Source: Marinihelvus fidelis (lineage in GTDB: Bacteria > Pseudomonadota > Gammaproteobacteria > Xanthomonadales > SZUA-36). Taken from it: a stretch of 64,000 bases of DNA. The notes under the pieces are model-generated. The model saw only the letters and a list, made by a program, of their open reading frames with translations. It had not been told where the DNA came from and did not search any database. Location of the stretch: the NCBI RefSeq assembly GCF_008725655.1, contig NZ_VYXP01000007.1:45001-109000 (forward strand), read 5' to 3'. Position 1 is the first letter of the stretch; the number at the start of each line of letters is the position of its first letter. This document shows, piece by piece, positions 5,578 through 27,544 of this stretch. The translations under genes were made by a program, and so were the position numbers.

Positions 5578-6324
5578 CTATCGCGAGGGCATCACCTGCC
5601 GGGAGAGGGGCGTGCCGAGCTTATCCAGGAATGCGCCAAATACCTCGTCGCTTAATGCGATGGAGCCATCGATCAGTTCATGGGTCTGGCGCCAGATGGA
5701 CTGGGCGTCGTGGGGTACGCCGCTGGTGTGAAGCTCATCCAGCATGGTGGGGAGTTTCAGCCAGCGGTTAATCAGGCGGCCGTCCAGTTCCAGGTGAAAC
5801 TGGAAACCATAAGCCTGTTCCCCGACACGGAAAGCCTGGTTTTCACAGCGCTGGCTTCGCGCTAGCCGGGTCGCGCCATCCGGCAGGTCGAAAGTGTAGC
5901 CGTGCCACTGGAATATCGGCCGGGAGCGGCCCAGCCTGCACAGCACCGGGTCATCCTTTGCGGCCGCGGTGGGTTCAACGTCGTACCAGCCAATCTCCCA
6001 TTCCCGGGCCGGTTTTGTGGGCGCACCCAGCGTATGCGCGAGCAACTGTGAGCCCAGGCAGATCCCCAGGACCGGCATATTTCGGGCCAGTGCCCGCTCG
6101 ATACAATGCATTTCGGTTCTGAGATGAGGATACCGGTCCTGCTGGTCAGGCATCATCGGGCCGCCCAGGACGATCAATGCCTGGTAGCGGTCGATGTTCG
6201 GCTGTGCATCGGGGTTGCGGTGGAAATTGATGTAACGGATCCGGTGGCCACGACGGCGCAGCATCGGGTCCAGGGTGCCGAGCGGCTCTGATGCGACGTG
6301 TTGGAAAACTAGCACTTTGGCCAT
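5578..6324 (-). CDS. Class I glutamine amidotransferase domain protein (GATase1)
   Basis: 248 aa consisting of a stand-alone class I glutamine amidotransferase domain. The nucleophile elbow GICLGSQ (Cys89) and the FQFHLE motif (His177, Glu179) complete the Cys-His-Glu triad, and the oxyanion strand VLGGPM is present near residue 54. Stand-alone proteins of this type resemble GuaA-like amidotransferases and gamma-glutamyl hydrolases such as PuuD; the synthetase partner is not next door. A conserved extension follows the catalytic His (about 185-248). It is transcribed away from the TonB-receptor promoter region. The exact substrate cannot be assigned. Confidence 0.8.
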   Translation of the reverse strand: MAKVLVFQHVASEPLGTLDPMLRRRGHRIRYINFHRNPDAQPNIDRYQALIVLGGPMMPDQQDRYPHLRTEMHCIERALARNMPVLGICLGSQLLAHTLGAPTKPAREWEIGWYDVEPTAAAKDDPVLCRLGRSRPIFQWHGYTFDLPDGATRLARSQRCENQAFRVGEQAYGFQFHLELDGRLINRWLKLPTMLDELHTSGVPHDAQSIWRQTHELIDGSIALSDEVFGAFLDKLGTPLSRQVMPSR

Positions 6325-6457
6325 GAACTACCCTTCTGCACCAGCTCCTAACCGGCGCATCCTCCCACGGTTCCACAATCGTGCAAGATAATGGATTCCT
6401 GCGGTAACGAGCAACCTGACCGCTTTTAAACAGGGCCGGGGCGGCTTGCCAATCGCG

Positions 6458-6475
6458 AGGTTAATCGTTTAGCAT
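6458..6475. promoter_or_regulatory. Weak LacI-type operator (variant form)
   Basis: AGGTTAATCGTTTAGCAT has a good right half (GTTTAGCAT) and a degenerate left half. It matches the site at 21473-21490 at 14 of 18 positions, better than it matches its own inverted repeat, which supports it as a real secondary site. Confidence 0.5.
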
Positions 6476-6482
6476 CAGGGCG

Positions 6483-6500
6483 ATGTTAAACGTTTAGCAT
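6483..6500. promoter_or_regulatory. LacI-family operator, 18-bp palindrome
   Basis: ATGTTAAACGTTTAGCAT is an inverted repeat around a central CG with one mismatch in nine half-site positions. The same core occurs at 21371-21388 and 21408-21421, next to the LacI gene. The central CG and half-site spacing are those of LacI-family operators. Confidence 0.75.
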
Positions 6501-6594
6501 GCCCCCTGGCACAGGTAAACCGGTGTCATTAAAGGAAATTGGCTGCGCCTTGTGTTTTTTCTTGACAGCGCAAGACATTTGTTGCGATGCTGTT

Positions 6595-6610
6595 ATGGTA
6601 GCGTTAACAT
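6595..6610. promoter_or_regulatory. Second-type LacI-family operator candidate
   Basis: ATGGTAGCGTTAACAT is a 16-bp imperfect palindrome (6 of 8 half-site positions match) with a central CG. It lacks the AAACGTTT core of the other sites. It lies just downstream of the TTGACA hexamer, where bound repressor would block transcription. It may be read by another LacI-family protein. Confidence 0.45.
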
Positions 6611-6808
6611 CCAAGACAGGCCGGACGATGATCCGGCAAGAAAAGAGCCTGAAAAGGCCAGCAAGACAGGTTCATGCGACCCCAGGGTCGCGGTTCGCGA
6701 ACAGTAGCGATATGACACAGTTCGATTGCATCAGCCGATAGCACCACTTGCGTTTGCCTGGCGGCGACGCACGGGAAGCATCGTGCACACACACGTTGGA
6801 GGAACGAC

Positions 6809-9800
6809 ATGTACTACAAAAGAAACAAGCTAAGCGAGATCATTGCCGCCACATTGGCGTCTGCGGTGGTCATGCCGATGGCCTACGCGCAGGATTCGGA
6901 AGGCGAGGACACTATCCTGGAAGAGGTCGTCGTGACCGGTATTCGCGGTTCAATGGAACGCGCCATGGACATCAAGCGTGATTCCAGTGGTGTCGTTGAT
7001 GCCATTTCGGCCGAGGACATCGGTAAATTCCCCAACACTAACCTTGCCGAATCGCTGCAGCGTATTCCGGGTGTGTCCATTGACCGCCAGAATGGCGAGG
7101 GCTCAAAGGTGACGGTGCGTGGTTTTGGCCCCGGGTTCAACCTGGTGACTCTGAACGGCCGAACCCTGCCCACCGCAACAGTCGGGATTATCGGCCAGCG
7201 TGACAACTACACCGGTGGTCAGGGCCGTAGTTTCGGCTTCGAGAATGTCGCCGCTGAAGGTGTCGGTGGCCTGGAAGTATTTAAGACCGGTAACGCACTT
7301 CTGCCTTCGGGTGGTATTGGTGCCACGATCGACATCCTGACACGGCGTCCGTTGGACTACGATAACACCGCCAGCATTGCGCTTAAGGCCAATGCAGACA
7401 AAAGCGTAGGCGATAGCGGTAGCGCGATCACGCCGGAAGCGTCTGGCCTGGTTAACTGGTCAAATGACAGCGGCACGTTTGGTATTGGCATTTTTGGCTC
7501 GTACTCGGAACGTGATTCCGGTGCGGCCATCGGCCAGGCCAACGACTGGGTGGTTCGCCGTGCTAACGATTTCTTCAGCAACACCAGTATCGTCCGCGCC
7601 GATGGCTCGACATCGGTGACAAACCCGCCGGCGGACGGTGAGTTGTACGCAATCCCGCAGGATAGCCGCTACGACTACAGTGAAATTACGCGAGAGCGCA
7701 TGAATGGCCAGTTGGTGGTGCAGTTCGCGCCGACGGACAACCTGCGTTTCACCGTTGATTACACGGCCGTAAACAACCAGCAGACGGAAATGCGCTCTGA
7801 GCAGACCAACTGGTTTGCTACGCCGTTTGACCAGTTGATCTTTGATGGTGAAGGCCCCGTCTCCCAGGCATTGTTCATGCAGGAGAACAACAACGGCACC
7901 AAGGATATCGGTTTCGAGCAGACCAACCGCGCAACCGACGAGTCGATCGATTCGTTCGGCCTGAACATCGAGTGGGACCTGTTTGAAAACCAGACGCTGC
8001 GCTTTGACGGACACACTTCGTCCGGTGAAGCACGCCCGGACAACCCGCTGGGTCACACGGCGACATTCGTGACCTTCGGTGCCCCGGTGATTTTGCAGCA
8101 CTCCGTGGACTGGAGCGAAGGATTCCCGATCCAGAGATACACCTACGACGATTCGATTCGTGGTAATGGCAACGGCACGATCGACCAGGGCGACCTGGCC
8201 ACGCAGGTGCAGCGTAGCTCGACCCAGATCCAGGAGAGCGATGTCGATGAATTTGACCTTCGTTACTCGTTCGACTGGGACAGCGCGCGCCTGGATATTG
8301 GCGCCAACAAGCGCGACACCTCGGTTTACGTGGAAGCGACGACGACCGAGCAGGAACTGGGTACCTGGGGTATGGCTAACCCGGGCGACGTGGAAATGTT
8401 CGCGCCTGGCCTGGTTGAGAAATACTGCATGGCCTGCCAGTTCAACGACTTCCCGGTGGGTGATGCGTCTGAAGCCTTCAGGGTCGACGCCACCCAGTTG
8501 TTCCCGATCTTCGAGTCGGCTTACTCGCAAAACGCCGTATCCCGGAACAGCAGCCAGAACACGGTCGAAGAAGATATCACCGCGTATTACGCCTCCTTCC
8601 AGTGGGATACCGAGGTGTTCGGTCTGCCGATGGAGTTGAACGCCGGCGTACGTTACGAAGAAACAGAGGTTGACGCGTACGCTTTCCAGGCCGTACCGAA
8701 TGGTATTACCTGGCGCTCGGACAACGACTTCCTGATTACCTACAACGCGAGCAACGAGAACGTTGAGGGCTCTGGCAGCTACGATCATTTCCTGCCTAAC
8801 CTGGACCTCAAGTTCGACCTGACCGACGAACTGGTGGCTCGCTTCTCTTACAGCGAAACCATCGCCCGGGTGCCATACGGCAACATGTTCGCAGCCACCA
8901 CGGCTGGCGCACCGAACCGTCCGACCGCGCTTGGTGGACAAACCGGTGGCAGCCGCCAGAACCCTGGCCTGTTACCGCTGGAGTCGACCAACTTTGACGT
9001 GTCGGTCGAGTGGTATTACGGCGATTCCAGCTACGTGTCGCTGGGTTACTTCAACAAGGATGTGTCCAACTTCCTGGGCACCGGCGTGTTTGACCAGCCA
9101 TTGTTCGGCCTGACCGACCCAACGGCCGGAGCCCCTGGATCGCGGTCCGGCGATGCCCTGGACATTATCGACAGCCTGGGTGTCGACCGCTCCGAGGCCA
9201 ACATGTTCACCCTTGTCGCCCTGATCGACGAGTTCCAGGGTGACCTGGCCGCGGCCCAGGCCGAGTTCGAAGCCAACCTGGTCAACGGCGCGTTGCCCCA
9301 GGACTATGTCGACCTGATCGCGACCAACTACGATATCGTCGGTGACGCCAACGATCCGTTGATGATCTTCCGCGTGACGCAACCGATCAACAACGAGGAC
9401 GCCAACATCGATGGCTGGGAATTCGCCTGGCAGCACTTCTTCGGTGACAGCGGCTTCGGTTTCGCCGGTAGCTACACGGTCGTGAACGGTGATATCGATG
9501 CCGATCCGGGCCAGGATCCGGACGCCAACGAGTTCGCACTGGTGGGTCTGTCCGATACTGCAAACGCCACGCTGATCTACGAGAACCACGGCTGGCAGGC
9601 GCGCGTTGCCTACAACTGGCGCGACACGTTCCTGAATGCCACCAACCAGGGTGGCAGCCGTAGCCCTCAGTTTACTGACGAATATGGTCAGTACGACTTG
9701 AGTGTCTCGTACCAGTTGACGGATCACCTGCAGGTACAGTTCGACGCCATTAACGTGACCGGCGAAGACCTGGTGCAGTACCGTCGCAAGGAGAAGATGG

Positions 9801-9859
9801 TGGTCTGGGCCTACGAGCTCGAGCCGCGCTACTCCCTGGGTGTGCGCTACCGCTTCTGA
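6809..9859 (+). CDS. TonB-dependent receptor, Xanthomonas/Caulobacter carbohydrate type
   Basis: 1016 aa, an outer-membrane receptor. A signal peptide of about 28 residues (ending near AYAQ) is followed by a TonB box DTILEEVVVTG, then a plug domain (about 45-190: IRGSMERA, ESLQRIPGVSIDR, VRGFGP, NGRTLP) and a long beta-barrel ending in the terminal aromatic of YSLGVRYRF. The length and plug motifs match the sugar-oligomer receptors common in Xanthomonas, Caulobacter and marine gammaproteobacteria, not siderophore receptors. The start is fixed by GGAGG at 6798-6802. Operators upstream link it to the LacI gene at 21540. SapC, cupin and halogenase genes follow. Substrate (cello- or manno-oligosaccharide) is inferred from the other arm of the locus. 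Confidence 0.93.
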   Translation: MYYKRNKLSEIIAATLASAVVMPMAYAQDSEGEDTILEEVVVTGIRGSMERAMDIKRDSSGVVDAISAEDIGKFPNTNLAESLQRIPGVSIDRQNGEGSKVTVRGFGPGFNLVTLNGRTLPTATVGIIGQRDNYTGGQGRSFGFENVAAEGVGGLEVFKTGNALLPSGGIGATIDILTRRPLDYDNTASIALKANADKSVGDSGSAITPEASGLVNWSNDSGTFGIGIFGSYSERDSGAAIGQANDWVVRRANDFFSNTSIVRADGSTSVTNPPADGELYAIPQDSRYDYSEITRERMNGQLVVQFAPTDNLRFTVDYTAVNNQQTEMRSEQTNWFATPFDQLIFDGEGPVSQALFMQENNNGTKDIGFEQTNRATDESIDSFGLNIEWDLFENQTLRFDGHTSSGEARPDNPLGHTATFVTFGAPVILQHSVDWSEGFPIQRYTYDDSIRGNGNGTIDQGDLATQVQRSSTQIQESDVDEFDLRYSFDWDSARLDIGANKRDTSVYVEATTTEQELGTWGMANPGDVEMFAPGLVEKYCMACQFNDFPVGDASEAFRVDATQLFPIFESAYSQNAVSRNSSQNTVEEDITAYYASFQWDTEVFGLPMELNAGVRYEETEVDAYAFQAVPNGITWRSDNDFLITYNASNENVEGSGSYDHFLPNLDLKFDLTDELVARFSYSETIARVPYGNMFAATTAGAPNRPTALGGQTGGSRQNPGLLPLESTNFDVSVEWYYGDSSYVSLGYFNKDVSNFLGTGVFDQPLFGLTDPTAGAPGSRSGDALDIIDSLGVDRSEANMFTLVALIDEFQGDLAAAQAEFEANLVNGALPQDYVDLIATNYDIVGDANDPLMIFRVTQPINNEDANIDGWEFAWQHFFGDSGFGFAGSYTVVNGDIDADPGQDPDANEFALVGLSDTANATLIYENHGWQARVAYNWRDTFLNATNQGGSRSPQFTDEYGQYDLSVSYQLTDHLQVQFDAINVTGEDLVQYRRKEKMVVWAYELEPRYSLGVRYRF

Positions 9860-9884
9860 TTACCACCCAACTGCAGTATAGGGA

Positions 9885-9913
9885 GGGGCCGCCTCGTTTG
9901 GGCGGCCCTTTCC
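9885..9913 (+). terminator. Stem-loop terminator/attenuator after the receptor gene
   Basis: An 8-bp perfect GC stem (GGGCCGCC with GGCGGCCC) and 7-base loop is followed by TTTCC. The T-tract is short, so it may lower rather than stop transcription into sapC and the halogenase genes, or stabilise the receptor mRNA. Confidence 0.65.
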
Positions 9914-9997
9914 ATATGCGGCCAGAAAAACCGGGCGACGCGGTTGACGCCGGCGCCCATTTGATAACATGCAATCATTCTTTGGACGGATGCCCAG

Positions 9998-10729
9998 ATG
10001 ACCAATACTGTTCTGCTGGATAATGTCAGTCACCACGACCTGAAGGTCAGAACCGGCCATTCGGCCAATTTCGGTGATGCCGTTAATATGGCGATGGTGT
10101 TCCCCACCGAATTTCCTTTTGTCCAGCGCGAATACCCCATCCTGTTTCGCAGGGAAACCAACGGTGATTTCCAGGCCGTCGTGCTGCTGGGGTTCGATAA
10201 GGGTGAGAACCTGTTCCTGGATGCTTCCGGTTGGAATGCTCGTTACGTCCCCGCAGTCCAGGAGCGTGGACCGTTCCTGATCGGGCTGCATGGCGCTAAA
10301 GATGGTGTGGATGAACCCGAGCCGATGATCCATGTCGACCTGGATCACCCGCGCGTCAACCGGCATGAAGGTGAATCGGTGTTCCTTCGGCATGGTGGTC
10401 ACTCGCCCTACCTGAAACGCATCAATCGGATTCTTCAGCTGATTTTTCACGGCGCCGAGCTGGCCAGGCCGATGTTTGCGGCTTTCGAGGAAGCCGGGCT
10501 GATCGAGGCCATGGAAGCGAAGGTGAGCCTGGATGAGCGCACGCAGTACACGCTGCCCGATTTTTTCACCATCAATACCGATCGCCTGGCGGCACTGGAC
10601 GGCGCGATGCTGGAAAAACTGAACCGCGATGGTTACCTGCAGCTCGCCATCATGGTGGCGAACTCACTGGGCAACATTGAATGGTTGATCGAGCTCAAGA
10701 ACCGCAAACGCGCGGCGGCGAACGCCTGA
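9998..10729 (+). CDS. SapC family protein
   Basis: 243 aa, no signal peptide or membrane segment. The pattern FPTEFPFVQREYPILFR near residues 35-51, LFLDASGWNARYVPA and GFDKGENLFLD matches the SapC family, named for a Campylobacter S-layer locus but common beside sugar TonB receptors in proteobacteria. Its biochemical role is not established. A purine-rich GGACGGA precedes the ATG at 9998. It stands between the receptor and the cupin/halogenase pair, the usual arrangement of this cassette, which suggests a shared but unknown job. Confidence 0.85.
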   Translation: MTNTVLLDNVSHHDLKVRTGHSANFGDAVNMAMVFPTEFPFVQREYPILFRRETNGDFQAVVLLGFDKGENLFLDASGWNARYVPAVQERGPFLIGLHGAKDGVDEPEPMIHVDLDHPRVNRHEGESVFLRHGGHSPYLKRINRILQLIFHGAELARPMFAAFEEAGLIEAMEAKVSLDERTQYTLPDFFTINTDRLAALDGAMLEKLNRDGYLQLAIMVANSLGNIEWLIELKNRKRAAANA

Positions 10730-10745
10730 TCGCGCGGTGACGGCC

Positions 10746-11759
10746 ATGCGCGAAACACGGGTGCTTGAAGACATCGCACCGGAGCATGTTCCATGGTCCG
10801 AGATTGTTGAGGAAGGCTGTCCCGTCATCCTGAAGGGGCTGGTGCGGGACTGGCCATTGGCGCGGACCAGCGCTCCGAGGGAGGCTGCGTCGTATTTGCG
10901 GCAGTTCTACCAGGGTCGTCCCGTGACCGCGTTCCTCGGTCGTCCGGAACTGCATGGTCGGTTCGGCTATACCGAAGACGCCACCCGTCTGGATTTCCAG
11001 TCTGAACGGGGCGACCTTGGGGCATACCTGGAGCGCATCCTGGAACTCGCCGGTGATGCCGGCGCGCCATCTATCTATATCGGCTCGACCGATGTTGACC
11101 AGTTCCTGCCCGGCTTCCGTACTGAAAATGACCTGGTGCTGAACCACGACATGTTTGAGGCCTCCCCGCCAATGGTCGGCGCGTGGATCGGCAACCGCAC
11201 GACCGCGCTCGCTCATCACGACCTGTCTTACAACGTGGCCTGTTGCCTGGTGGGTCGGCGACGGTTTTCCCTGTTTCCGCCGGAGCAGGTGGCCAATCTT
11301 TACCCGGGTCCGCTGGACCCGACACCGGGTGGCCAGGTGGTCACCATGGCGGATATTGGGGACCCGGATTTCGATCGGTTTCCCGGCCTGCGCGAGGCGC
11401 TCGATACCGGCGAAGTGGCGGATCTTGAGCCCGGTGACGCCCTGTACTACCCGGCGTTGTGGTGGCACCAGGTCAGTGCCCTGGAGGATTTCAATATCAT
11501 GGTGAACTACTGGTGGAACCGCGTGCCGGATTTCGTCGACACGCCACAGACCACGCTGATGCATGCGCTGCTGAGTCTTCGTGACCGGCCGGAGCCGGAA
11601 AAACGTGCCTGGCGGGCCATGTTTGACTACTACGTGTTCGGGCCGGCGGATCGCGCCGGTGCTCACCTGCCGGAAGGCGCGCGCGGACCATTGGCACCGC
11701 TGGATGATATGTCGGCGCGCCGGCTGCGCGCTCTACTGCAGAGGAAGCTGAACCGATGA
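10746..11759 (+). CDS. Cupin-like (JmjC/cupin-8, FIH-type) protein
   Basis: About 337 aa. The N-terminal region (EEGCPVILKGLVRDWP) is the hallmark of the FIH-like cupin-8 family. The metal site is seen as H-x-D in AHHDLSYN (about residues 157-159) and a distal His in WWHQVS (about 241), with the hydrophobic YYPALWWHQV strand between. These are expected Fe(II)/2-oxoglutarate oxygenase features, so a hydroxylase is likely but unproven. ATG at 10746 is preferred because GGTGA lies just upstream; GTG at 10737 is an alternative. Its stop overlaps the halogenase start (ATGA), implying translational coupling. Homologues commonly sit beside TonB receptors and tryptophan-halogenase-like genes. Confidence 0.82.
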   Translation: MRETRVLEDIAPEHVPWSEIVEEGCPVILKGLVRDWPLARTSAPREAASYLRQFYQGRPVTAFLGRPELHGRFGYTEDATRLDFQSERGDLGAYLERILELAGDAGAPSIYIGSTDVDQFLPGFRTENDLVLNHDMFEASPPMVGAWIGNRTTALAHHDLSYNVACCLVGRRRFSLFPPEQVANLYPGPLDPTPGGQVVTMADIGDPDFDRFPGLREALDTGEVADLEPGDALYYPALWWHQVSALEDFNIMVNYWWNRVPDFVDTPQTTLMHALLSLRDRPEPEKRAWRAMFDYYVFGPADRAGAHLPEGARGPLAPLDDMSARRLRALLQRKLNR

Positions 11760-13255
11760 GTTCCAAGGGCGAACAGGCGGTTCGGCGAGTGGTGATCGCT
11801 GGCGGCGGTACCGCCGGGTGGACCGCCGCTGCCGCGCTGGTACGCCAACTGGGCGCACTGCTGGATATCACCCTGGTGGAATCGGATGCTATCGGCACAG
11901 TGGGTGTCGGCGAAGCGACTATTCCGACATTCAGGACATTTCACGCCCTGATCGGTGTTGATGAACGCGAGTTCATGCGCGAGACCAAGGCGACGTTCAA
12001 GCTGGGGATTTCCTTCGAGGACTGGGATCGGCTGGGCGAGCGTTACATTCATCCCTTCGGCGAAGTCGGCAAATCGACCTGGATGGGCGATTTCCAGCAC
12101 ATGTGGCTTATGGCGAAGGACCGGGGTGAAGCCGGTGAGCTGGGAGACTACTGTTTTGAGCACGTGGCGGCGCGCGCCGGGAAATTCGCCGTGGCCGAGG
12201 GCTCGAAGATCAACTATGCCTACCACCTTGATGCTGGGATGTACGCGAAGTACCTGCGCGGCAAGTTTTCACCCATGGGAATCAACCGCATCGAGGGCAA
12301 GATCGACCAGGTTGAGCAGGACGGCGAGTCCGGATACGTCACGGCGCTGGTACTGGAGGACGGCACCCGGGTCGAGGGCGACCTGTTCGTCGATTGCACC
12401 GGTTTTCGCGGCCTGTTGATCGAGCAGACGCTGGAAGCCGGCTACGAGGACTGGCGTCACTGGCTGCCCACGGACAGCGCGCTGGCCGTGCAGACCGAGA
12501 ATGCCGGCAGCACACCCCCGTACACCCGCGCGATGGCGCGCAGCTCGGGGTGGCAGTGGCGGATTCCGTTGCAGCACCGCGTGGGCAACGGCCTGGTGTT
12601 CTGCAGTCGTTACCAGGATGAAGATCCGGCGCGTGAAGAACTGCTGGGCAACCTCGAGGGTGAACCACTTACCGAGCCGCGCCTGATTCGTTACGTGACC
12701 GGCCGGCGACGACGCGCCTGGGTGAAGAACGTGGTGGCGCTGGGCCTGTCCAGCGGCTTCCTCGAGCCGCTGGAGAGCACCAGTATTCACCTGATCCAGA
12801 TTGGCGTGATGCGGTTGATTCAGTTGTTTCCCTTTGACGGCAATTTCGAGGCCCTGGCCACGCGTTACAACGCCAAGTCTGAAGCAGAGTTCGAAAACGT
12901 CCGCGACTTCATCATCCTGCACTACACGCTGACGCGGCGTGACGACACGCCGTTCTGGCGCCATTGCCGTGACATGACTATTCCGGACAGCCTGGCCGCT
13001 CGTATCGAGCTGTTCCAGGAGAGCGGTTGCGTCTACCCGGCCGCCGAGGAGCTGTTCAAGGTGACGTCGTGGCTGTTCGTGATGATGGGACAGGGCGTGA
13101 TGCCGCACCATTATCACCACATGGGCGCTTTGCTCGGTGACCAAAGACTGAACCGGGCGCTGGGCTCACTGAAAGCGAACATTGCCGCCGCAGTGGACAA
13201 AATGCCCACCCACCAGGTCTTCATTGACCGCTACTGTCGCGCGCCGGACGCGTAA
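11756..13255 (+). CDS. Flavin-dependent tryptophan-halogenase family protein
   Basis: 499 aa. The FAD-binding GGGTAGW motif is at about 16-22, followed by GVGEATIP (50-57). The residues needed for halogenation in PrnA/RebH have counterparts: Lys82 (TFKLGI), the GWQWRIP motif at 265-271, and Glu340-Ser341 in PLEST. By motif it should therefore be catalytically competent, using reduced flavin from a separate reductase that is not in the window. Related enzymes in TonB-receptor loci of Xanthomonas and Brevundimonas-like bacteria halogenate indoles, but their natural substrates are unknown. It is coupled to the cupin gene by a 4-base overlap and runs convergently into the next gene with only 7 bases between. 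Confidence 0.9.
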   Translation: MSSKGEQAVRRVVIAGGGTAGWTAAAALVRQLGALLDITLVESDAIGTVGVGEATIPTFRTFHALIGVDEREFMRETKATFKLGISFEDWDRLGERYIHPFGEVGKSTWMGDFQHMWLMAKDRGEAGELGDYCFEHVAARAGKFAVAEGSKINYAYHLDAGMYAKYLRGKFSPMGINRIEGKIDQVEQDGESGYVTALVLEDGTRVEGDLFVDCTGFRGLLIEQTLEAGYEDWRHWLPTDSALAVQTENAGSTPPYTRAMARSSGWQWRIPLQHRVGNGLVFCSRYQDEDPAREELLGNLEGEPLTEPRLIRYVTGRRRRAWVKNVVALGLSSGFLEPLESTSIHLIQIGVMRLIQLFPFDGNFEALATRYNAKSEAEFENVRDFIILHYTLTRRDDTPFWRHCRDMTIPDSLAARIELFQESGCVYPAAEELFKVTSWLFVMMGQGVMPHHYHHMGALLGDQRLNRALGSLKANIAAAVDKMPTHQVFIDRYCRAPDA

Positions 13256-13262
13256 ACCGGCC

Positions 13263-14393
13263 TCAGAGGAACAGCTTCCGATAGATTTCGTCGGCCTGCC
13301 GCTGCATGTCGCGCGCTTTTACCGTGTCACCCAGCTGCTCATAGACCTGAGCGGCCAGGGCGTAAAACCGTGGCTCGGTGTCGAGTTTCTCGATGGCTGA
13401 CAAGGCCAGCAATTCCGCCTGGCGGAGTTCACCCTGGTCCAGCGCGACCTGGGCGCGTGTGTAGGCGAAATACGGGTTGGCCTCGCGGTATTCGGCCGCC
13501 AGGCGGCGGAAGTATTCGGCGCGTTCCTTCTGGCCTACGGTGCCATACAACGTCCCCAGGTTGCTGGTCAGGCTCAGGTCCCGTGGATTCCAGGACAGGC
13601 CTTGCAGGTAAGCCGTCTCCGCGTCCAGCAGCCGTTGGTTGCGAAAGTAGAGGTTCCCCAGGTTGTTCCAGATGTAACTGCGGCCGGGGTCAAGTTCCAG
13701 CGCACGACGCATGTGGCGGAATGCGGCCAGGTTGTCGCCTTCGGCCAGGATTTCCATGGCGCGGTTGCTGTAGTAAAGCGCTTCGACCCGCCGGCCGGAT
13801 ATGGTCTGTTGACGGTAGCTGGGGTTGTAGCGCTGCATCTCCAGGTCCACGATCAGTTCTTCGCCGGTGCGCAGCCTGACCTTGGCGTTGACGTGACGTA
13901 GCAACATCATGGTGTTGCTGCCTTCTCGCATGTCCCAGGCGGGTGGCAGGATGACGTCGTTGACCTCGGCCACCAGGTTCATCTGCCGTGCCATGGCCAC
14001 GTAGATCAGCGTGTAGCTCAGGCAGTTGACCTTGCGGGCGGCGAAAGCACGTGTCGGCGGCAGGGTCGGGTTGACGGCGTTATAGTCGATACCGAATCCA
14101 CCGGTCGGAACCGGGCCCAGCAGGCGCAGGTGAAGTGCTTTCGCCCGACTGTAAGGCGATGCATGTGCGGCTTCGATTTCTTTAGCCGCCGAAACCAGGA
14201 TCGGCGGCAAGGCATTGAGATCTTCGGCGGGGAGTTCGTGTTCGCGGATGACCTGGCCGGTGAGCGAATGGCCGGACAAAAGCTCGGCAACCGCCGTCTT
14301 TGACGGGGTCTGCACCCAGTCCGGATGCGGATCGACGATGCTGCAGGCCGCCAGGCCCAACGTCGCGATCCCTGTCGCGAGCGCCCGCTTCAT
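13263..14393 (-). CDS. Lipoprotein with transglutaminase-like domain and TPR repeats
   Basis: 376 aa. A lipobox LAAC (Cys17) marks a lipoprotein. Residues about 80-190 look like a transglutaminase/cysteine-protease core, with Cys124 (KVNCLSYT), His167 (LRHVNA) and Asp183 (IVDLE) forming a plausible Cys-His-Asp triad. Residues about 205-376 are tandem TPR helices (for example FRHMRRALELDPGRSYIWNNLG). The layout resembles periplasmic transglutaminase-like TPR proteins; activity is unproven. Orientation matches the sugar operon below, but an 89-bp gap separates it, so membership is uncertain. Confidence 0.75.
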   Translation of the reverse strand: MKRALATGIATLGLAACSIVDPHPDWVQTPSKTAVAELLSGHSLTGQVIREHELPAEDLNALPPILVSAAKEIEAAHASPYSRAKALHLRLLGPVPTGGFGIDYNAVNPTLPPTRAFAARKVNCLSYTLIYVAMARQMNLVAEVNDVILPPAWDMREGSNTMMLLRHVNAKVRLRTGEELIVDLEMQRYNPSYRQQTISGRRVEALYYSNRAMEILAEGDNLAAFRHMRRALELDPGRSYIWNNLGNLYFRNQRLLDAETAYLQGLSWNPRDLSLTSNLGTLYGTVGQKERAEYFRRLAAEYREANPYFAYTRAQVALDQGELRQAELLALSAIEKLDTEPRFYALAAQVYEQLGDTVKARDMQRQADEIYRKLFL

Positions 14394-14482
14394 GGCCAGT
14401 TATCCTGGAAAGCTGCTTAAAGCATACGCCTTTTAGCGGGCGCCGGCACCTTCAGCGTGCCGTCGAGGTGCTGGTCCCCTAC

Positions 14483-15733
14483 TTAGCCGGCTTCCAGGAT
14501 GGAGAGTCGGCGGGCGGCTTCCATCATCGCGCGGCCGGTGTGATACGGGCCTTTCCACGCGCCGGCGCGGTAGTGCGGATCCGGTGCATTGTCCGAAGGG
14601 GCGCCCTGGCTGCGCCACTCCACGCCGCCTGGTGCGATGTGGGCGCGTTGCGTGAATGCCCAGACGGTATCGGCGGCCTCGCCCCAGCGGTCGTCGCCGC
14701 TAAGCAGGTCGGCATTCAGGAAGCCTACCAGGGCCTCGGCCTGAACCCACCATGTGCTTTCGGAAGGGTCGCCGTTGCCATCCGGACGGTCCTGTACAAA
14801 ACCGGCAGCGGTCATGGCCTGTGACAACACCCTCTCGGCTAACGCCAGCGCGCGTGGCCGGACGGCGGTCCTGACCACGGGGTCATCAAGCGCTTCCGCG
14901 GCCTCCCAGAGCAGCCAGCTGGCCTCGATTTCGTGGCCAAAGGATTCGACTGCGGGCAGCTCGTTCCACTGGCGGTCGAAGTACAGGCCAAGTCTCGGTG
15001 TGTCCGCTACCAGGACATGGTCGATGAACAGGTCGATGGATTCCCGCAAGGCCTTGCGACTGCGTGCGTTCGGCGCGGCCTGGTGCAGCGCGGTGCAGGC
15101 TTCCACCAGGTGCAGGTGCGTGTTCATGGTCTTGGGCGCGTCGAGGTCGTCGTCGCCCAGGCGCATGTCGGCGGCCGGCGTCCAGTTTCGATTAAATGAC
15201 TCGATAAACCCACCGTACTCATCGTCTCGCGCGTGCTCCCACAGCGCGGCCAGGTAGTCTCGCGCCTTGGTGATGGCCGAGGTGTCGCTGGTCAGCCGGT
15301 AGTACGCGCACAGGGCGTAGATGCTGAAACACAGTCCATATGAGCGCTTGCCGTCGTCGGCGACGCTGCCGTCAGCCTCGAGCGACCAGTAAGCGCCACC
15401 AAAACCCGGGTCGTCAAAATGGTCATTGAAATAGCGGTAAGCCCGATCGGCCGCCAGCCGGCATTCGCGGTCGCCACCGGCCCGGCCCACCTCGCTGAAG
15501 AACCACAGAAGGCGGGTGTGCAGTACCAGGTGTTTGCGGGCGCCCGCGACGGGCTGGCCCGAAGCGTCGATCTCGCCATAAAAACCGCCGTTTTCCCGGT
15601 CGATGGAATGGTCCAGCCACCAGCGCGTGATGGCATCGAGTTCGCGCAGGGCGTCCTCCATGGTGAATATTGTTCTTGTTGTGATTTCCGGTGCGGCTGT
15701 CATGGCCCTGGCAGTCGTTGTCGAAAGGATCAT
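14483..15733 (-). CDS. AGE-family disaccharide 2-epimerase (cellobiose/mannobiose 2-epimerase-like)
   Basis: About 416 aa. An (alpha/alpha)6-barrel protein of the N-acylglucosamine 2-epimerase/cellobiose 2-epimerase family. Visible are ENGGFYGEID near the N-terminus, KTMNTHLHLVEA, ESFGHEIEASWLL and a C-terminal WKGPYHTGRAMME with conserved His. Family members interconvert the reducing-end sugar (cellobiose to glucosyl-mannose, mannobiose to mannosyl-glucose). The GH130 mannosylglucose-phosphorylase-like gene 4 bases upstream favours mannobiose or mannosyl-glucose chemistry. The open frame extends to 15826, but that would overlap GH130; ATG at 15733, immediately after the GH130 stop, is the most likely start, with ATG at 15703 or 15661 possible. 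Confidence 0.85.
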   Translation of the reverse strand: MILSTTTARAMTAAPEITTRTIFTMEDALRELDAITRWWLDHSIDRENGGFYGEIDASGQPVAGARKHLVLHTRLLWFFSEVGRAGGDRECRLAADRAYRYFNDHFDDPGFGGAYWSLEADGSVADDGKRSYGLCFSIYALCAYYRLTSDTSAITKARDYLAALWEHARDDEYGGFIESFNRNWTPAADMRLGDDDLDAPKTMNTHLHLVEACTALHQAAPNARSRKALRESIDLFIDHVLVADTPRLGLYFDRQWNELPAVESFGHEIEASWLLWEAAEALDDPVVRTAVRPRALALAERVLSQAMTAAGFVQDRPDGNGDPSESTWWVQAEALVGFLNADLLSGDDRWGEAADTVWAFTQRAHIAPGGVEWRSQGAPSDNAPDPHYRAGAWKGPYHTGRAMMEAARRLSILEAG

Positions 15734-15737
15734 TATC

Positions 15738-16925
15738 TCAAACTTTGGATCGATTTTGATTGGCATTGACCAACTGCCTGATGGCGCTGGCGGAAGTCGC
15801 GGTGCTGCCGCCGTCTTCAGGGGCATTCAGGCAGTGATCCACCAGCCGGTCGACACTGCTGGTGGCGACGTGCATGCGCGTGTCCGCCGAGGCGTAATAG
15901 ATCAGAACACGGGCGTCGTCACCGTTGCCGTCACGTATCCAGCCGTTGCAGAACACCACGTTGGACACGTCCCCCGGCCGTTCATCACCGCGCGGCGCCA
16001 GCAGGTGTCCGGCGGGCTTGCGCCGGATCACCCAGGGCCGGTCGAGTTCGGTCAGGAAGGGGTAGAGCACGTAGCGCAGCCCGGCCGCGGTGCCGCGGAC
16101 GCCATGTGCCAGGTGCAGCCAGCCTTCGCGGGTGCGAATGGGGGGCGGCCCCTGGCCGTTCTTGGCCTCGGCAATGGTGTGATAGGCGCGTGGGTCGACG
16201 ACGGTTTCCTCGTCTACGCGGGCGTTGTCCATGCGCTCAGCCAGCCCCCAGCTGAGGCCGCCGGCACCGCCGGCCTCGATGAAGCCATCCTGCGGGCGTG
16301 TGTACAACCCGTAACGGCCGTCGATGAATTCGGGGTGCAGCACCACGTTGCGTTGCTGCGGTGAGCGCGTCACCAGGTCCGGCAGTCGTTCCCAGGTGTC
16401 AAGGTCGCGGGTGCGGGCGATGCCGCAACGCGCCAGCGCCGCGGTCGGGTCGTCCGGGTGGTTCGGGTCGTGCCGCTCGGCGCAGAACAGGCCGTAGATC
16501 CAGCCATCTTCGTGCGCGGTCAGGCGCATGTCATAGAGGTTGGTCTCCGCATCGTCCAGCGCGGGCATGTCGATGGGCGCATCCCGAAAACGAAAACCGT
16601 CAACGCCGTTGTCACTTTCGGCGATGGCGAAGTAAGACTTCCGATCGGCGCCCTCCATGCGCAGCACCAGCAGGTACTTGCCCTGCCAGGCCATTGCACC
16701 AGCGTTGAAGGTGCTGTTGACGCCAATCCGCTCCAGCAAGTGCGGGTTTGTGACCGGGTCCAGGTCGTAGCGCCATTCCAGCGGCACGTGGTCGCGCGTG
16801 ACCACGGGGTGGCGCCAGCGTTCGTAGATGCCGTTGCCGGCCTCGTCCACTGGCGAGTTGGTGCGCCTGAGCAGCGCGTCGAGCTCGGCGCGCAGGCGGG
16901 AAAGGCGCGGGTCGAAACCTGTCAT
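15738..16925 (-). CDS. GH130 phosphorylase, mannosylglucose phosphorylase-like
   Basis: 395 aa. A five-bladed beta-propeller glycoside phosphorylase of GH130. NSTFNAGAMAWQGKYLLVLRMEG, the DAETNLYDMRLTAHEDG block (with the candidate acid Asp) and LTELDRPW are characteristic, and the N-terminal length fits subgroup 1 (4-O-beta-mannosyl-glucose phosphorylase) better than subgroup 2. Expected reaction: Man-beta-1,4-Glc plus phosphate gives mannose-1-phosphate and glucose. It has no signal peptide and so is cytoplasmic. It sits between GH94 (22-bp gap) and the epimerase (4-bp gap), a complete intracellular phosphorolytic set. Subgroup is inferred by eye. Confidence 0.87.
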   Translation of the reverse strand: MTGFDPRLSRLRAELDALLRRTNSPVDEAGNGIYERWRHPVVTRDHVPLEWRYDLDPVTNPHLLERIGVNSTFNAGAMAWQGKYLLVLRMEGADRKSYFAIAESDNGVDGFRFRDAPIDMPALDDAETNLYDMRLTAHEDGWIYGLFCAERHDPNHPDDPTAALARCGIARTRDLDTWERLPDLVTRSPQQRNVVLHPEFIDGRYGLYTRPQDGFIEAGGAGGLSWGLAERMDNARVDEETVVDPRAYHTIAEAKNGQGPPPIRTREGWLHLAHGVRGTAAGLRYVLYPFLTELDRPWVIRRKPAGHLLAPRGDERPGDVSNVVFCNGWIRDGNGDDARVLIYYASADTRMHVATSSVDRLVDHCLNAPEDGGSTATSASAIRQLVNANQNRSKV

Positions 16926-16947
16926 GACTCTGCCGGGGCCATTGACC

Positions 16948-19419
16948 TTACGCCTGGCCCATCACCACCTCGACTACGCACCGGCTCCCGGGCGCCGCCA
17001 GTGGCAGCGTGGTTCCGGTCACGGGCCTTCCGTCGACGCTGGTCGATGCGATGCCGCGTGACACCCTGTCAGGGTTGCGCACGCGAATGTCGTAGGTCGC
17101 GTCACGGTAACGGCGCGTCACCTCGAAGCCGTCCCAGTCTGCGGGGATGCAGGGGTCGATGCACAGCCCGTCATAGTCCGGGCGGATGCCCAGGATATGC
17201 TCGGTGATGGCGTGCCAGTTCCAGGCCGCCGTTCCGGTGAGCCAGGAGTTCTTGGCTTCGCCGGGCAGGAAGGCTTCCTTGCCGGCCACCATCTGCGCGT
17301 AGACGTACGGCTCAATCTTGCGCAGGGCGACGTGGTCCTGGAACGCCGGCGCGATGCGGCGCCAGTAGTCGAAGGCGCGGTCGCCACGACCCAGCACGGT
17401 CTCGGCGATTACAATCCACGGGTTGTTGTGGCAGAAGATGCCGCCGTTTTCCTTGTAGCCCTGGGGATAGGTACTGATTTCCCCCAGCTCCAGGTGGTAG
17501 CGCGTGTAGGCTGGCGCGTTCAGCACGATGCCGTACTCGCACGCCAGGCGTTCCTCGACCGACGCCATTGCGGTTTCCGCCCGGCTGTCGTCCTGGCCCA
17601 GGCCGGCCATGACACAGAACCCCTGCGGTTCAATAAAGATCTGGCTGCCGTCGCTGTCTTTCGACCCGACCGCATCGCCATTGGCGTCGTAGGCGCGCAA
17701 CCACCATTCGCCGTCCCAGCCATGATCGGCAATGGCGGTGCGCATGTCGGCCACGTGGCCTTCCGCGCGGCATGCCTCGGCCTCGTCACCCAGTCGCCTG
17801 CACAGGTCGGCGTAGTCGCCGCCGTAAAGTACGAACTGCGCGGCGATGAACATCGACTCGGCCACCTGGCCCTCGCCGGTCCCGGTGGTCTGGAAGGTCT
17901 GGTCCGGGTTGGTGGAAAAGCAGTTCAGGTTCAGGCAGTCGTTCCAGTCGGCGCGGCCGATCAGCGGCAGGCCGTGCGGTCCGCGCTTGCGTACGACATG
18001 GTCGAAAGACGCCTTCAGGTGCGCCAGCAGCGGCGCCGTGCGGGTCTCGTCGTTTTCCCAGGGCACCGCCTCGTCCAGGATCGAGACATCACCGGTCTCG
18101 CGGATGTAGGCCGTGGTCGACAGCACCAGCCACAGCGGGTCGTCATTGAAGTTGCCGCCGATGGCCGCGTTACCGCGCTTGGTCAGCGGCTGGTACTGGT
18201 GATAGACGGAGCCGTCCTCAAACTGGGTAGCGGCGATGTCGAGAATGCGTTCGCGGGCGCGGTCCGGGGCCAGGTGTACCGAACCCAGCAGGTCCTGGTT
18301 GGAGTCGCGGAAGCCCATGCCGCGGCCTAGGCCCGCCTCGAAGAACGAGGCGCTGCGTGAAAGGTTGAAAGTCACCATGCACTGGTAGGCATTCCATGTG
18401 TTGACCATGCGGTCGAGTCGCGGCTCATGCGACTTCACCTGGAACCGCGACAGCAGATCGTCCCAGTAAGCCGCCAGCCGGCCGAGCGCGGCGTCTGCCT
18501 TGTCGGTGGTGTCGTAGCGGGCAATCAATGCCTCGGCCGCGGTGCGGTTCAGGTTGCCATCGGCATCGAACTTGTCGTTGTCGGGCATTTCCACATAGCC
18601 AAGCTGGAACACCAGTTCCCGGGTTTCACCGGCGGCCAGTTCCAGGTCGAAACGGTGCGAGGCAACCGGCGACCATCCGTGTGCGACGCTGTCGCCGGAC
18701 GTGCCGGCGGCGACCTGGTCAGGCCGGTCGAAGCCGTTGTAGGGGCCCAGGAAGGTGTCGCGGTCGGTGTCGAAGCCGTCGATTTCGGCATTGACGGTAT
18801 AGAAAGCAAAATGATCACGGCGTTCGCGGTATTCGGTCTTGTGATAGACCGTCCCGCCATGCACTTCCACCTCGCCAACCGAGAAGTTGCGCTGGAAGTT
18901 GCTCATGTCATCCTCGGCGTTCCAGAGACACCATTCGACGAACGAGTAGAGCTGTAGCGAACGTGCCTGGCCGGAGCGGTTCTCCACCGTTACGCGTTGC
19001 ACTTCCACGTGATCGCCAGGCGGCACGAAGAACAGCACGCTGACCCGCACGCCATCTTTCTCGCCCGTGATCTGCGTGTATCCCATGCCGTGGCGGCATT
19101 CGTAGTGGTCCAATGGTGTGCGGCAGGGCTTCCAGCCGGGCGACCAGGTGGTGTCGCCGTCGCGGATGTAGAAATAACGCCCGCCATCGTCGACCGGCAC
19201 GTTGTTGTAGCGGTAACGGGTCAGGCGGCGGAACTTGGCGTCGCGGTAAAAGGCATAACCGCCGGCCGTATTCGAGATCAACGAGAAAAACACCTCGCTG
19301 CCCAGGTAGTTGATCCACGGGTACGGCGTGTCAGGACGGGTGATGACATACTCACGACGTTCATCGTCGAAATGCCCGAACTCGGTTTCGGCGCTGGCCG
19401 GTTTCAGTGCGGCAACCAT
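16948..19419 (-). CDS. GH94 cellobiose phosphorylase
   Basis: 823 aa. N-terminal [14 protein letters not shown] and PYPWINYLG, then [28 protein letters not shown] (about 368-379) and the catalytic segment GRADWND (Asp at about 491-494) are textbook GH94 cellobiose phosphorylase. It converts cellobiose plus phosphate to glucose-1-phosphate and glucose in the cytoplasm. A longer frame reaches 19440, but the ATG at 19419 has GGAGG 8 bases upstream and aligns with family N-termini. The ribosome site overlaps the end of the symporter gene (stop at 19424), so the two are coupled. Glucose-1-phosphate made here could feed GlgC encoded 15 kb away. Confidence 0.95.
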
Positions 19420-19423
19420 GGGC

Positions 19424-21298
19424 TCAGGCCTCCGTCGCATCGGCCGTCCGCTCGAGGCGGTCGTACCAGGTCTTTTTCAGGATCACCGCGGCCACGCCAA
19501 ACACCACCAGCGTGGTCACCAGCGAACCGCCTTCGCGGATCACCAGGAAGATGGGTGCCGCGACCAGGCAGGTCTGCGCGATGATGCCGACCACGACATT
19601 GAACATGTCGCGCTTGAAGTCGGGGTTGCGCTGGAACGTCGGGTCCTCGGCCACGACCTTGTCGTGCACCGGGCCCCACAGGCCCCAGGGCCGGACCTGG
19701 CGGTAGAACGCCTTCAGCAGTTCGTCGTCTTCGGGTGGGGTCATCGCCGTGGCAACCACGCAGACGATGCCGGAGACCAGGAACAGCAACGGGAACAGGT
19801 ACAACGGCAGGATGTCCGGCGCCACGCCCGTGAACATCGGCCCCAGCAGCGGCGGGAACAGCAACGCACCGATAATGCCGGAGAGCATGCCCCAGAAATA
19901 GCCGATGCCGTTCAGTCGCCACCAGTACCATTTCAGCACGTTGGCCACCGCGTAGCCCCCAAACAGCCCGGACACCAGCCACTGCAGCACGCTGTTGATT
20001 GATTCCACGAACAGGCCGATCAGCGTGCTGATGATCACCACCAGTACCGACACCAGGTAGCTGGCACGAATCAGCGCCTTGTTGCTGGCCTGCGGGTTGA
20101 TGTAGCGGTGGTAGATGTCGTTGACGATGTAAGCCGGCGCCGCGTTCACGGTGCTGGCGAAGGTCGACATGAAGGCCGCCAGCAGCCCAGCCAGCAACAG
20201 GCCCAGGATACCCGCCGGCGCGAACTGCAGCATCGCCGAGGGCAGGATGTTTTCGAAATCGATCTTGCCGCCCGACATCAGGTCCAGCTGCTGGTAGTAG
20301 ACGATGGCCAGCACCGCGAAACCGGCGATCATCAGGTAACGGATCGGGTTCAGGGCGATCGACACGAAGCCGCTCATCAGCGCGGCCTCGCGCGGCGAGC
20401 GCGTGGCCAGGATCTTCTGCATGTCATAGTTGGGCGCGGGGCCGGCCAGCGAAGACAGCACGCCCTTGAACAGCATCATCATGAAGAAGATCGAGAACAG
20501 CGTGTAGCCGTCGGACACGATCTTGTCGTTGACCTCGGCGATCTTTGCGCCCCAGTCGAGGTCGAGCGTCCAGCCGAAGAACGGGTTGGCCCAGCCCTCC
20601 GGCGTGGCCGCGTGCAGCGCCTCCGGCGTGACGTTCATCATGGCGATGGTGGCAATGATGACGGCCGATATTGCCATGATGGTGAACTGCACCACGTCCG
20701 CCCAGACAATGCTGAGCATGCCGCCCAGCATGACGTAGAAGGTGGCGAAACTGGTAAAGAAGACACCGTACAGGTGCGGTACGTACTCAGGCGGAACGTC
20801 GAACGGCACGTAGGGCGCGACGGTCTCCCAGGGGATGAAGATCTCGATGAACTTGCCCACGCCGATGAAGCCATAGGCCAGGAAGCCCAGCACCGAGATC
20901 ACCGCGAACAGCACCACCACCATGTGCGCCAGGCGGCCGCCGGTGTTGTCACCGAAGCGGGTCTGGATCCACTGTGCGCCGGTAATCACATTGGACCGGC
21001 GCAGCCAGCAGGACAGGAACGCGGCCAGGAATACCTGGTTGAACACCGGCCACAGCCAGGGAATCCAGATGCTCTTCATACCGTAAACGAAACACAGCGT
21101 GACCAGCCACATGGTGCCGGAGATGTCGAACATGCCGGAGGCATTGGACAGGCTGAGCATGTACCAGGGCAGGCGCTTGCCGCCCTGGTAGTAGGCCTTC
21201 ATGTCCTGGGCGGCGCGGCGCTTCAGGTACAGGCCGATAAAGATCGTGAAGGCGAGATACGCCCCGATGATGGTCAGGTCGATGGCTTGTAGTTGCAT
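19424..21298 (-). CDS. Sodium:solute symporter (SSS family)
   Basis: 624 aa with about 14 hydrophobic segments and the SSS hallmarks: N-terminal [33 protein letters not shown], and [31 protein letters not shown], the region related to the sodium-binding TM8 of SGLT/PutP. A long soluble stretch near the C-terminus (about 530-580) is typical of the sugar-linked group. It is the first gene of the symporter-GH94-GH130-epimerase operon, so disaccharide uptake is the natural inference. A GGTGA ribosome site precedes the ATG. It is regulated by the operators in the gap shared with the LacI gene. Confidence 0.92.
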
Positions 21299-21370
21299 GT
21301 TGTTTTCACCGGCCTCTTGAGCATGGAGGCCTTTTCGTTATTGGACAGTCGCAGGGCGCTGTTTTGGCGC

Positions 21371-21388
21371 ATGTTAAACGTTTCACAA
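21371..21388. promoter_or_regulatory. LacI operator 1 in the symporter/LacI gap
   Basis: ATGTTAAACGTTTCACAA has the same first 13 bases as the site at 6483. Its right half deviates at two positions. It lies 73 bases upstream of the symporter start. Confidence 0.7.
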
Positions 21389-21405
21389 CGGCACGGTCAA
21401 CCAAC

Positions 21406-21423
21406 GAGTTAAACGTTTAACGT
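21406..21423. promoter_or_regulatory. LacI operator 2, perfect 14-bp core
   Basis: The inner 14 bases GTTAAACGTTTAAC (21408-21421) are a perfect palindrome around CG. The centre lies 35 bases from the centre of operator 1, so the two sites are roughly three to three and a half helical turns apart. Confidence 0.78.
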
Positions 21424-21472
21424 GCAGTTAACACCGACTTGACGGTGGGTCTGGATGATGTGATCTGTCAAA

Positions 21473-21490
21473 GGGTCAATCGTTTTACAT
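21473..21490. promoter_or_regulatory. Variant LacI operator close to the lacI start
   Basis: GGGTCAATCGTTTTACAT parallels the variant site at 6458-6475 at 14 of 18 positions. It is about 50 bases before the LacI ATG, a good place for autoregulation. Confidence 0.5.
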
Positions 21491-21539
21491 GCATGTGACA
21501 TGCCCCTAAAATTGGCCTGATAACAAGGAAGCTGGGCAA

Positions 21540-25985: not shown

Positions 25986-26043
25986 TTTAGTAACTCCATT
26001 GATTCCTGTACGCCGACACCTCTGGCCGGCAATTAAGTTGGGA

Positions 26044-26340
26044 TCAATAGATTGCGGGCGGGCCCCTGGCGGTGGCGCGCCGGGCTTCGGCGCTGGCCAG
26101 GCTGTCCGCGTGGCGGACGTATGCGGGCTGCAATGTGCCGGCGTTGACCGGCGGGTGAGCATGGTCGATGGCGCCATGCTGAAGGTCGCTGCCGATAGAG
26201 CAGGCCACGCAGGGCGTGTGGTCAATGCCCGGCGCGTGTTCAACCTGGTGGGCCAGCAGCCCGGTTTGCGCACACAGCAGAACCGCCAGCAGTATCGACT
26301 GCCAGACGCTCCGAAAACGATCTGTGCGGACTTTTCTCAC
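26044..26340 (-). CDS. Small His/Cys-containing exported protein (DUF2946-like)
   Basis: 98 aa. One hydrophobic N-terminal segment (about 13-31, SILLAVLLCAQTGLLAHQ) is followed by a short tail rich in His with a CVAC pair (HTPCVAC near 42-48) and HGAIDHAHPP. The arrangement resembles DUF2946-type proteins found near metal TonB receptors; a role in metal binding outside the cytoplasm is a guess. Start is GTG and overlaps the stop of the LacI gene by 4 bases (GTGA). The zinc-type receptor begins 58 bases downstream. Confidence 0.65.
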   Translation of the reverse strand: MRKVRTDRFRSVWQSILLAVLLCAQTGLLAHQVEHAPGIDHTPCVACSIGSDLQHGAIDHAHPPVNAGTLQPAYVRHADSLASAEARRATARGPPAIY

Positions 26341-27377: not shown

Positions 27378-27425
27378 GGTGTTGCTGCCTGCTGCCGCCA
27401 AGCGCCGCGGCGAGTGGTCAATACA

Positions 27426-27439
27426 GGATGATAACATCC
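27426..27439. promoter_or_regulatory. Inverted repeat between the LacI gene and zwf
   Basis: GGATG-ATAA-CATCC is a perfect 5-bp inverted repeat with a 4-base centre, in the gap shared by the regulator and zwf. It lacks the central CG of the operators at 6483 and 21408. It may be a binding site or a chance palindrome. Confidence 0.35.
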
Positions 27440-27544
27440 GGGGGCGCAAGGCTGAATACGAATACAAACCGTTGCGCCACTGCCGGTGCACGCATAGCCT
27501 TCATCGGACATGCCAAGCCCGTTCGCGGGCGGAGAATCAAAAAC

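Follow-up and report, generated by a model that had tools for sequence, protein, structure and literature searches.

The receptor cassette, the distant operon and the sites before them

The window, by which we mean the whole 64-kb stretch of DNA analysed here (contig C7, 45001–109000, of the 3.43 Mb, 17-contig genome G000), contains two groups of genes that appear to serve sugar uptake and breakdown. The first, on the forward strand, is a cassette of a TonB-dependent receptor of the TonB-Xanth-Caul subfamily (6809–9859), a SapC family protein (9998–10729), a cupin_8 protein (10737–11759) and a flavin-dependent halogenase of the tryptophan-halogenase family (11756–13255; closest solved chain 6y1w). 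The second, on the reverse strand, consists of a cellobiose 2-epimerase (14483–15826; nearest solved structures 9l8i and 3wkf), whose start may be further in, a GH130 enzyme of the 4-O-beta-D-mannosyl-D-glucose phosphorylase type (15738–16925; nearest 3was), a GH94 enzyme of the cellobiose phosphorylase type (16948–19440; nearest 3qde, 1206 bits) and a sodium/solute symporter (SSF, 19424–21298). ORF calling was simple, and gene starts and small genes are approximate. By sequence similarity, catabolic enzymes for both beta-1,4-glucan and beta-1,4-mannan disaccharides are present, which fits the use of cellobiose and mannobiose. An epimerase and a mannosylglucose phosphorylase together make up the mannan pathway; the same two enzymes are found here in one operon, although a LacI/TonB system and a cellobiose phosphorylase accompany them. 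An Rfam search of 6300–21600 for an RNA element in the receptor leader gave no match at the gathering score.

A LacI-family regulator with the recognition helix SIATVSH (His at residue 22) is encoded on the forward strand at 21540–22553, next to the symporter, and is the proposed reader of the sites described below. It has the LacI/GalR architecture, with PF00356 (HTH) and PF13377 (periplasmic-binding-protein-like sensor) both above the cut-off, and PurR and CcpA are among its best-scoring solved relatives, with a LacI-family match over the full length; these two differ from it in that they regulate other pathways. At 23766–27491 a TonB receptor adjoins a second LacI gene, with the helix SQATVSR, and its neighbours are a glucose-6-phosphate dehydrogenase gene and a PF01182 (glucosamine-6-phosphate isomerase/6-phosphogluconolactonase) gene.

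Five near-palindromic sites of one type are found in the window: the TonB receptor is preceded by two, and the gap between the symporter and lacI holds three. O1 (AGGTTAATCGTTTAGCAT, 6458–6475) is a variant and O2 (ATGTTAAACGTTTAGCAT, 6483–6500) a strong site, with centres 25 bp apart; O3 (ATGTTAAACGTTTCACAA, 21371–21388), O4 (21407–21422, containing an exact GTTAAACGTTTAAC at 21408–21421) and the variant O5 (GGGTCAATCGTTTTACAT, 21473–21490) occupy the gap. A search of the window for GTTAAACGTTTAAC with up to three mismatches returns exactly these five (0.45 expected; none of 100 shuffles reaches five), and a second criterion (core AACGTT, ATCGTT or AACGAT and at least five of eight complementary pairs) returns the same five and no more. 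The sequences given in the original prediction are all where it had placed them, and its two variant sites do agree at 14 of 18 positions; the site at 6483–6500, there called a palindrome, is an imperfect one, with eight of nine pairs complementary. Central CG, near-palindromic form and proximity to the regulator's own gene are traits of LacI/GalR operators, and the window sites show all three.

The sites lie over or beside predicted promoters. The predicted promoter P1 of the receptor (6446–6475, forward strand; TTGCCA, 18 bp, TAGCAT; nine of 12 consensus positions) takes its −10 from the outer portion of O1, and O2 follows shortly after. This geometry is that of the predicted symporter-operon promoter (21371–21400, reverse strand; TTGACC, 18 bp, TAACAT), whose −10 is the outer part of O3 and whose −35 has O4 just upstream. 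At the predicted lacI promoter (21484–21512; TTTACA, 17 bp, TAAAAT) the −35 is covered by O5, which suggests autoregulation. Judged from consensus matches only, the placement at the symporter, lacI and the receptor is repressor-like.

Distribution of the motif in this and related genomes

At up to two mismatches GTTAAACGTTTAAC occurs at 10 sites in the whole genome as against one for a mirrored control (approximately 2.0 expected from the base composition of the window), and at up to one mismatch at four (0.08 expected); the 16-mer TGTTAAACGTTTAACA at up to three mismatches gives 11 as against two. The motif is not frequent and random in the genome, the outcome that the original prediction had named as speaking against it, and the repeated palindrome is confirmed as real in both window and genome. 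Contig C7 holds five of the 10 sites, namely four of those in the window and C7:135029.

Two sites outside the window point to further targets. Only 7 bp separate the end of the AAACGTTT-type site TGTTAAACGTTTCAGG at C3:20911 (L093 6912–6927) from the called start of a GH5 gene of the cellulase family (PF00150), whose product has an apparent signal peptide by eye and, among solved structures, is closest to Cel5D (5oyc, 544 bits). A 17 bp stretch at this site, CCTGAAACGTTTAACAT, is identical in G000 and its congener G001 inside diverged flanks; an upstream reading frame seems to end near it, so constraints other than an operator are possible there. The AAACGTTT-type site at C6:177368 (L090 7369–7384), TGTCAAACGTTTTACA, has a second TonB receptor gene on one side and a cupin_8 gene on the other, the halogenase-like genes there being convergent with the receptor gene; this site too is kept in G001 while the flanks have diverged. 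Read by eye, this second cassette has another, poorer LacI-type box, TGAGAGCGGTAACA, behind TTGACA-17-TAGCAT.

The remaining sites are not counted as part of the regulon. C7:135029 (AGTTAAACGTTTAAAG; L091 7029–7044) lies approximately 430 bp before a HAD gene that heads an arabinose-type operon, with an apparent tRNA gene on its other side; it is found in G001 with one base changed, but the flanking DNA is almost as well conserved as the site itself. C3:218345, before a 3-keto-disaccharide hydrolase-like gene, and C1:128048, C5:353898, C6:25283 and C8:106069 were set aside as lacking a demonstrated conserved counterpart. For G001, sites upstream of a GH43 gene (L097) and in the gap from GH3 to an MFS-type sugar transporter gene (L100) were likewise set aside, the latter gap having no site in its G000 counterpart. 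Elsewhere in G000, at C2:550000–562000 (L114), a LacI gene (SQATVSR) is divergent from an apparent TonB receptor gene that is followed by a halogenase-like gene, which reads as a second local regulator/receptor/halogenase set.

In G001 the LacI protein is 80% identical to that of the window, the receptor 97%, the symporter 95% and GH94 95%, and all five sites are kept, three in the gap at equal spacing and two before the receptor; the receptor upstream regions of the two genomes are too similar to be of use for footprinting. More can be read from G029, which belongs to the same family and another genus (LacI 66%, symporter 79%, GH94 72%, receptor 64% identical). Here the symporter, GH94 and receptor genes are contiguous, and lacI is on a different contig with GH67, GH3 and further sugar genes as neighbours. 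An operator, TGTTAAACGTTTTACA, ends 28 bp upstream of the symporter gene, a pair of sites lies between GH94 and the receptor ortholog, and lacI is preceded by a weaker site, TGTAAAACGTTTATAT; the sites thus accompany their targets even where these do not adjoin lacI. The TTGACC-18-TAACAT promoter with an operator over its −10 is identical in G000, G001 and G029, and at the G029 receptor ortholog the operator directly follows a TTGACA-17-TAAATT promoter. Motif counts (control in brackets) in six relatives are 12 (2) in G001, 7 (5) in G029, 2 (1) in G005, 1 (1) in G004 and 0 (1) in both G002 and G003; seven sites at up to two mismatches against five for the control make the count by itself weak evidence for G029.

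A search of 151 genomes with the LacI protein returned G000, G001 and G029 as the best three, and no other among the matches listed exceeded 45% identity. GH94 at E 1e-100 was found in two of the 16 family genomes searched, again G001 and G029, the two with the LacI ortholog. Receptor orthologs are found also in G002, G005 and G032, where the best LacI match is 40–43% identical and no GH94 was found at E 1e-100; two of these three genomes are less than 90% complete.

Loci with lacI relatives number 27 in public genomes. The neighbours near lacI were surveyed in 20 of them, not including L128 and L130, each ORF being given its single best match in the window and many loci ending at contig ends; a halogenase was found in 14, GH94 in 10, the symporter in eight and SapC in seven, and relatives of GH130 and the epimerase in none of the 20 stretches. 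Several loci, L119, L134, L135, L138 and L140 among them, have operators upstream of symporter or TonB receptor genes. In L119 and L140 the TonB receptor that follows the operators matches that of the window over 223–231 residues only (33–35%), which suggests that the operator stays with the function and not with one receptor family. In Agaribacterium haliotis (L140) a site lies approximately 90 bp before the LacI gene, with two GH5 genes and one GH9 gene within 8 kb downstream.

A xyl-box-like element at the receptor

A second type of operator-like element, TGGTAGCGTTAACA, lies at 6596–6609 and overlaps the −10 TATGGT (6594–6599) of P2, a predicted promoter of the extended −10 type downstream of P1. 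The published Xanthomonas xyl-box is TGGTAGCGCTAACA, as given in the available text of PMC7748154 and PMC10380989; it is found exactly at the xylB promoter of this genome and with one change (13 of 14 positions) over the receptor promoter. The −10/box arrangement at 6594–6609 (TATGGTAGCGTTAACA) is that of the xylB promoter on contig C3 (TATGGTAGCGCTAACA): both boxes overlap the −10, and TTATGGTAGCG(C/T)TAACATC is common to the two. Exact matches to TGKTARCGYTAMCA number three in G000 (0.08 expected), two in the xylan/xylose locus and one at the receptor. With one mismatch allowed there is no enrichment (three as against seven for the control), so only the exact matches carry weight. The xylose locus contains GH67, GH43 and GH10 genes and a LacI gene (SPMTVSR, C3:192935), as well as what we take, from their sequences, to be xylose isomerase- and xylulokinase-like genes; the LacI of this locus is probably the reader of the box. 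An AraC-type xylose regulator, the subject of PMC12125979 in the text available, has no bearing here.

The box is present in G001, and the pattern has no match in G029, the genome of another genus. The element TGATAGCGCTATTA in the G029 receptor leader was left out as a xyl-box; the xylB/lacI gap of that genome has TGTAAACGTTTACA-type sites instead.

With this box at the receptor, two repressors probably act on the cassette, and the original prediction of a single regulon of uptake, metabolism and halogenase cassette is to this extent incomplete, although the regulon itself is supported by the sequence comparisons. A further limit on it is that G002, G005 and G032 have receptor orthologs, whereas the searches of these three genomes gave neither a close LacI ortholog nor GH94. 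The two inputs may combine by an OR logic, with two promoters, or by an AND logic, through roadblock of the P1 transcripts. Pursued further, this leads to a tentative reading of the cassette as a two-input module, in which cello/manno-disaccharide and xylose LacI repressors act on tandem promoters, the receptor, serving a mixed substrate of glucan and xylose (xyloglucan, for instance), responds to one sugar, the other or both, and the halogenase belongs to plant-polysaccharide uptake and not to secondary metabolism. A similar pairing of a AAACGTTT site with the poorer LacI-type box is seen at the second TonB cassette on C6.

The xylose repressor could also be the main regulator of the cassette, with the upstream AAACGTTT sites secondary or acting from a distance. 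The promoter arrangement common to the receptor and xylB, the rarity of the exact box and the occurrence of receptor orthologs in genomes where no close LacI ortholog was found all speak for this. We nevertheless consider a mainly xylose-dependent cassette unlikely, as the box pattern lacks enrichment once a mismatch is allowed, the −35 of P2 (TTGACA, 6562–6567) is 26 bp from its −10, which obliges P2 to function as a promoter of the extended −10 type, and the G029 receptor has a AAACGTTT operator at the start position in a genome with no match to the box pattern. A point against the 21540 LacI regulon itself is the position of O2, which would be some 105–125 bp upstream of where P2 transcripts should begin: repression by way of O2 needs P1, itself a weak consensus match.

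The probable reader of the sites and the proposed regulon

The genome has six LacI genes, and His22 occurs only in the protein encoded at 21540; the helices of the other five, SQATVSR (twice), SKKTVSR, SPMTVSR and SIKTVSR, all have Arg22. Arg at this residue has been linked with G at operator position 6 by Camas and colleagues (PMC2978694, in the text available), and among the relatives of the window protein the same covariation of residue 22 and position 6 known for LacI/GalR proteins is found. The set comprised 25 proteins, from loci L119–L140 (22 loci) and from G000, G001 and G029 (L117 and L118 being counted as G001 and G029); L141–L143 were dropped (26–35% identity, the L141 match lacking the helix), and the definition of a site was blind to position 6. 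All five His22 genomes have strict sites, in which position 6 of the half-site is T in 20 cases and C in two (22 of 22), whereas in the 14 of 20 Arg22 loci with strict sites it is G in 35 and A in three (38 of 38); strict sites are absent from L121, L123, L127, L128, L132 and L136. First-order Markov resampling (20 runs) gives means of 0.4 and 0.65 sites, as against the 11 and 19 observed for His22 and Arg22 respectively.

The contrast recurs within one genome. In G029 the xylose-side LacI paralog has Arg22 and sites with G at position 6 (GTGTAAACGTTTACAT and ATGTAAACGTTTACAA, of the TGTAAACGTTTACA type, between the xylulokinase- and LacI-like genes on C142, L086 3601–3675; helix SIATVSR), and the ortholog of the window protein has His22 and sites with T. 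In a quick tree built from 21 of these 25 proteins and two paralogs (L128, L130, L132 and L138 left out), the His22 proteins fall into one clade with support of 0.99; the switch at residue 22 and position 6 may thus be a single event. PurR has a TVSH helix and a AAACGTTT core, and its operator has G at position 6 despite the His, which indicates that His alone does not fix T at this position.

These comparisons bear on a second alternative, that another LacI paralog (that of 26337–27491 or one of the other four) reads the sites or that several share them. LacI paralogs do have similar operators with central CG, and the 26337 gene lies only approximately 5 kb from the gap, beside another TonB receptor. 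With Arg22 in all five, however, G would be expected at position 6, where the sites have T or C; three of the sites lie in the gap adjoining the 21540 gene, and its orthologs are again accompanied by sites of this kind, all of which makes a reader other than the 21540 protein improbable. We hold it very improbable, too, that the receptor-side sites control the divergent class-I glutamine amidotransferase gene (5578–6324) instead of the receptor, for although they are nearer to its start (approximately 135–175 bp as against 310–350 bp) and in G001, too, this gene has the receptor as its neighbour, G029 has the same operator directly behind the receptor-ortholog promoter, with GH94 upstream and no amidotransferase relative within the 14 kb examined, and L119, L134, L135 and L138 have operators before TonB receptor genes as well.

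The assignment of the 21540 protein as reader, proposed in the original prediction, is thus supported by its being the only His22 protein of six, by the covariation and by the recurrence of the sites with its orthologs. For the regulon as a whole, operators are found at corresponding targets in a second genus where the flanks have diverged and the receptor, GH94 and symporter genes are neighbours; to this are added the same covariation, the sole His22 LacI and sites over the predicted promoters of both units. The palindrome is very likely the operator of one sugar-sensing repressor that controls both the receptor/halogenase cassette and the cellobiose-type operon. As an explanation of all the observations together we strongly favour a regulon of the 21540 LacI, a sugar-released repressor with five operators in the window.

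The sequences themselves show the sites, how they are conserved, how they vary with residue 22 and, by consensus matches, where they lie on promoters; in the scheme that this suggests, we infer binding, repression, the inducer and the roles of the SapC, cupin and halogenase proteins. A LacI dimer without sugar would occupy the five sites and block RNA polymerase, O1 and O2 acting on P1, the upstream promoter of the receptor–SapC–cupin–halogenase cassette, O3 and O4 on the symporter promoter and O5 on the promoter of lacI itself. LacI would be released by a pathway sugar, either cellobiose itself or one of its products or epimers, and outer-membrane uptake, inner-membrane symport and phosphorolysis would rise together, GH94 handling cellobiose and the epimerase with GH130 handling mannobiose. 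The site before GH5, apparently a secreted enzyme, probably adds an extracellular step, and that between the second TonB receptor and cupin_8 probably a second cassette; the xyl-box over the downstream promoter P2 would be a second input to the receptor cassette.

The nearest described regulon that we met is that of Shewanella BglR, a regulator of the LacI type whose sites are predicted upstream of beta-glucoside operons and of Omp-Bgl, a TonB receptor gene standing apart from them (PMC2996990, in the text available). The likeness lies in a LacI-type regulator with sites before a sugar operon and a separate TonB receptor. The BglR regulon has a GPH-type transporter and hydrolases, whereas here there are an SSF symporter, phosphorylases and the SapC, cupin and halogenase genes. 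The word 'halogenase' does not occur in the main text of that paper as available. Operators before receptor, transporter and catabolic operon, the trait of a beta-glucan/cellobiose regulon, are all found here. The Xanthomonas XylR/xyl-box system differs in that the xyl-box is here only a second input, the receptor having AAACGTTT operators as well.

In kind, this is an ordinary LacI sugar regulon and a solid new example of one; beyond the original prediction, the analysis adds the residue-22 covariation, the GH5 target and the xyl-box. The set of LacI proteins constitutes a natural test of the rule linking residue 22 and operator position 6 beyond the TVSR group. The interest lies in a halogenase cassette under LacI control. 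Within the open-access literature searched, we found no paper tying the halogenase, SapC and cupin genes on the TonB side to a sugar regulator. Across the loci examined, these genes are repeatedly found next to TonB receptors (the halogenase in 14 and SapC in seven of 20), and a conserved operator that puts the halogenase cassette under a cellobiose-type repressor would provide a concrete condition under which to seek the substrate of the halogenase.
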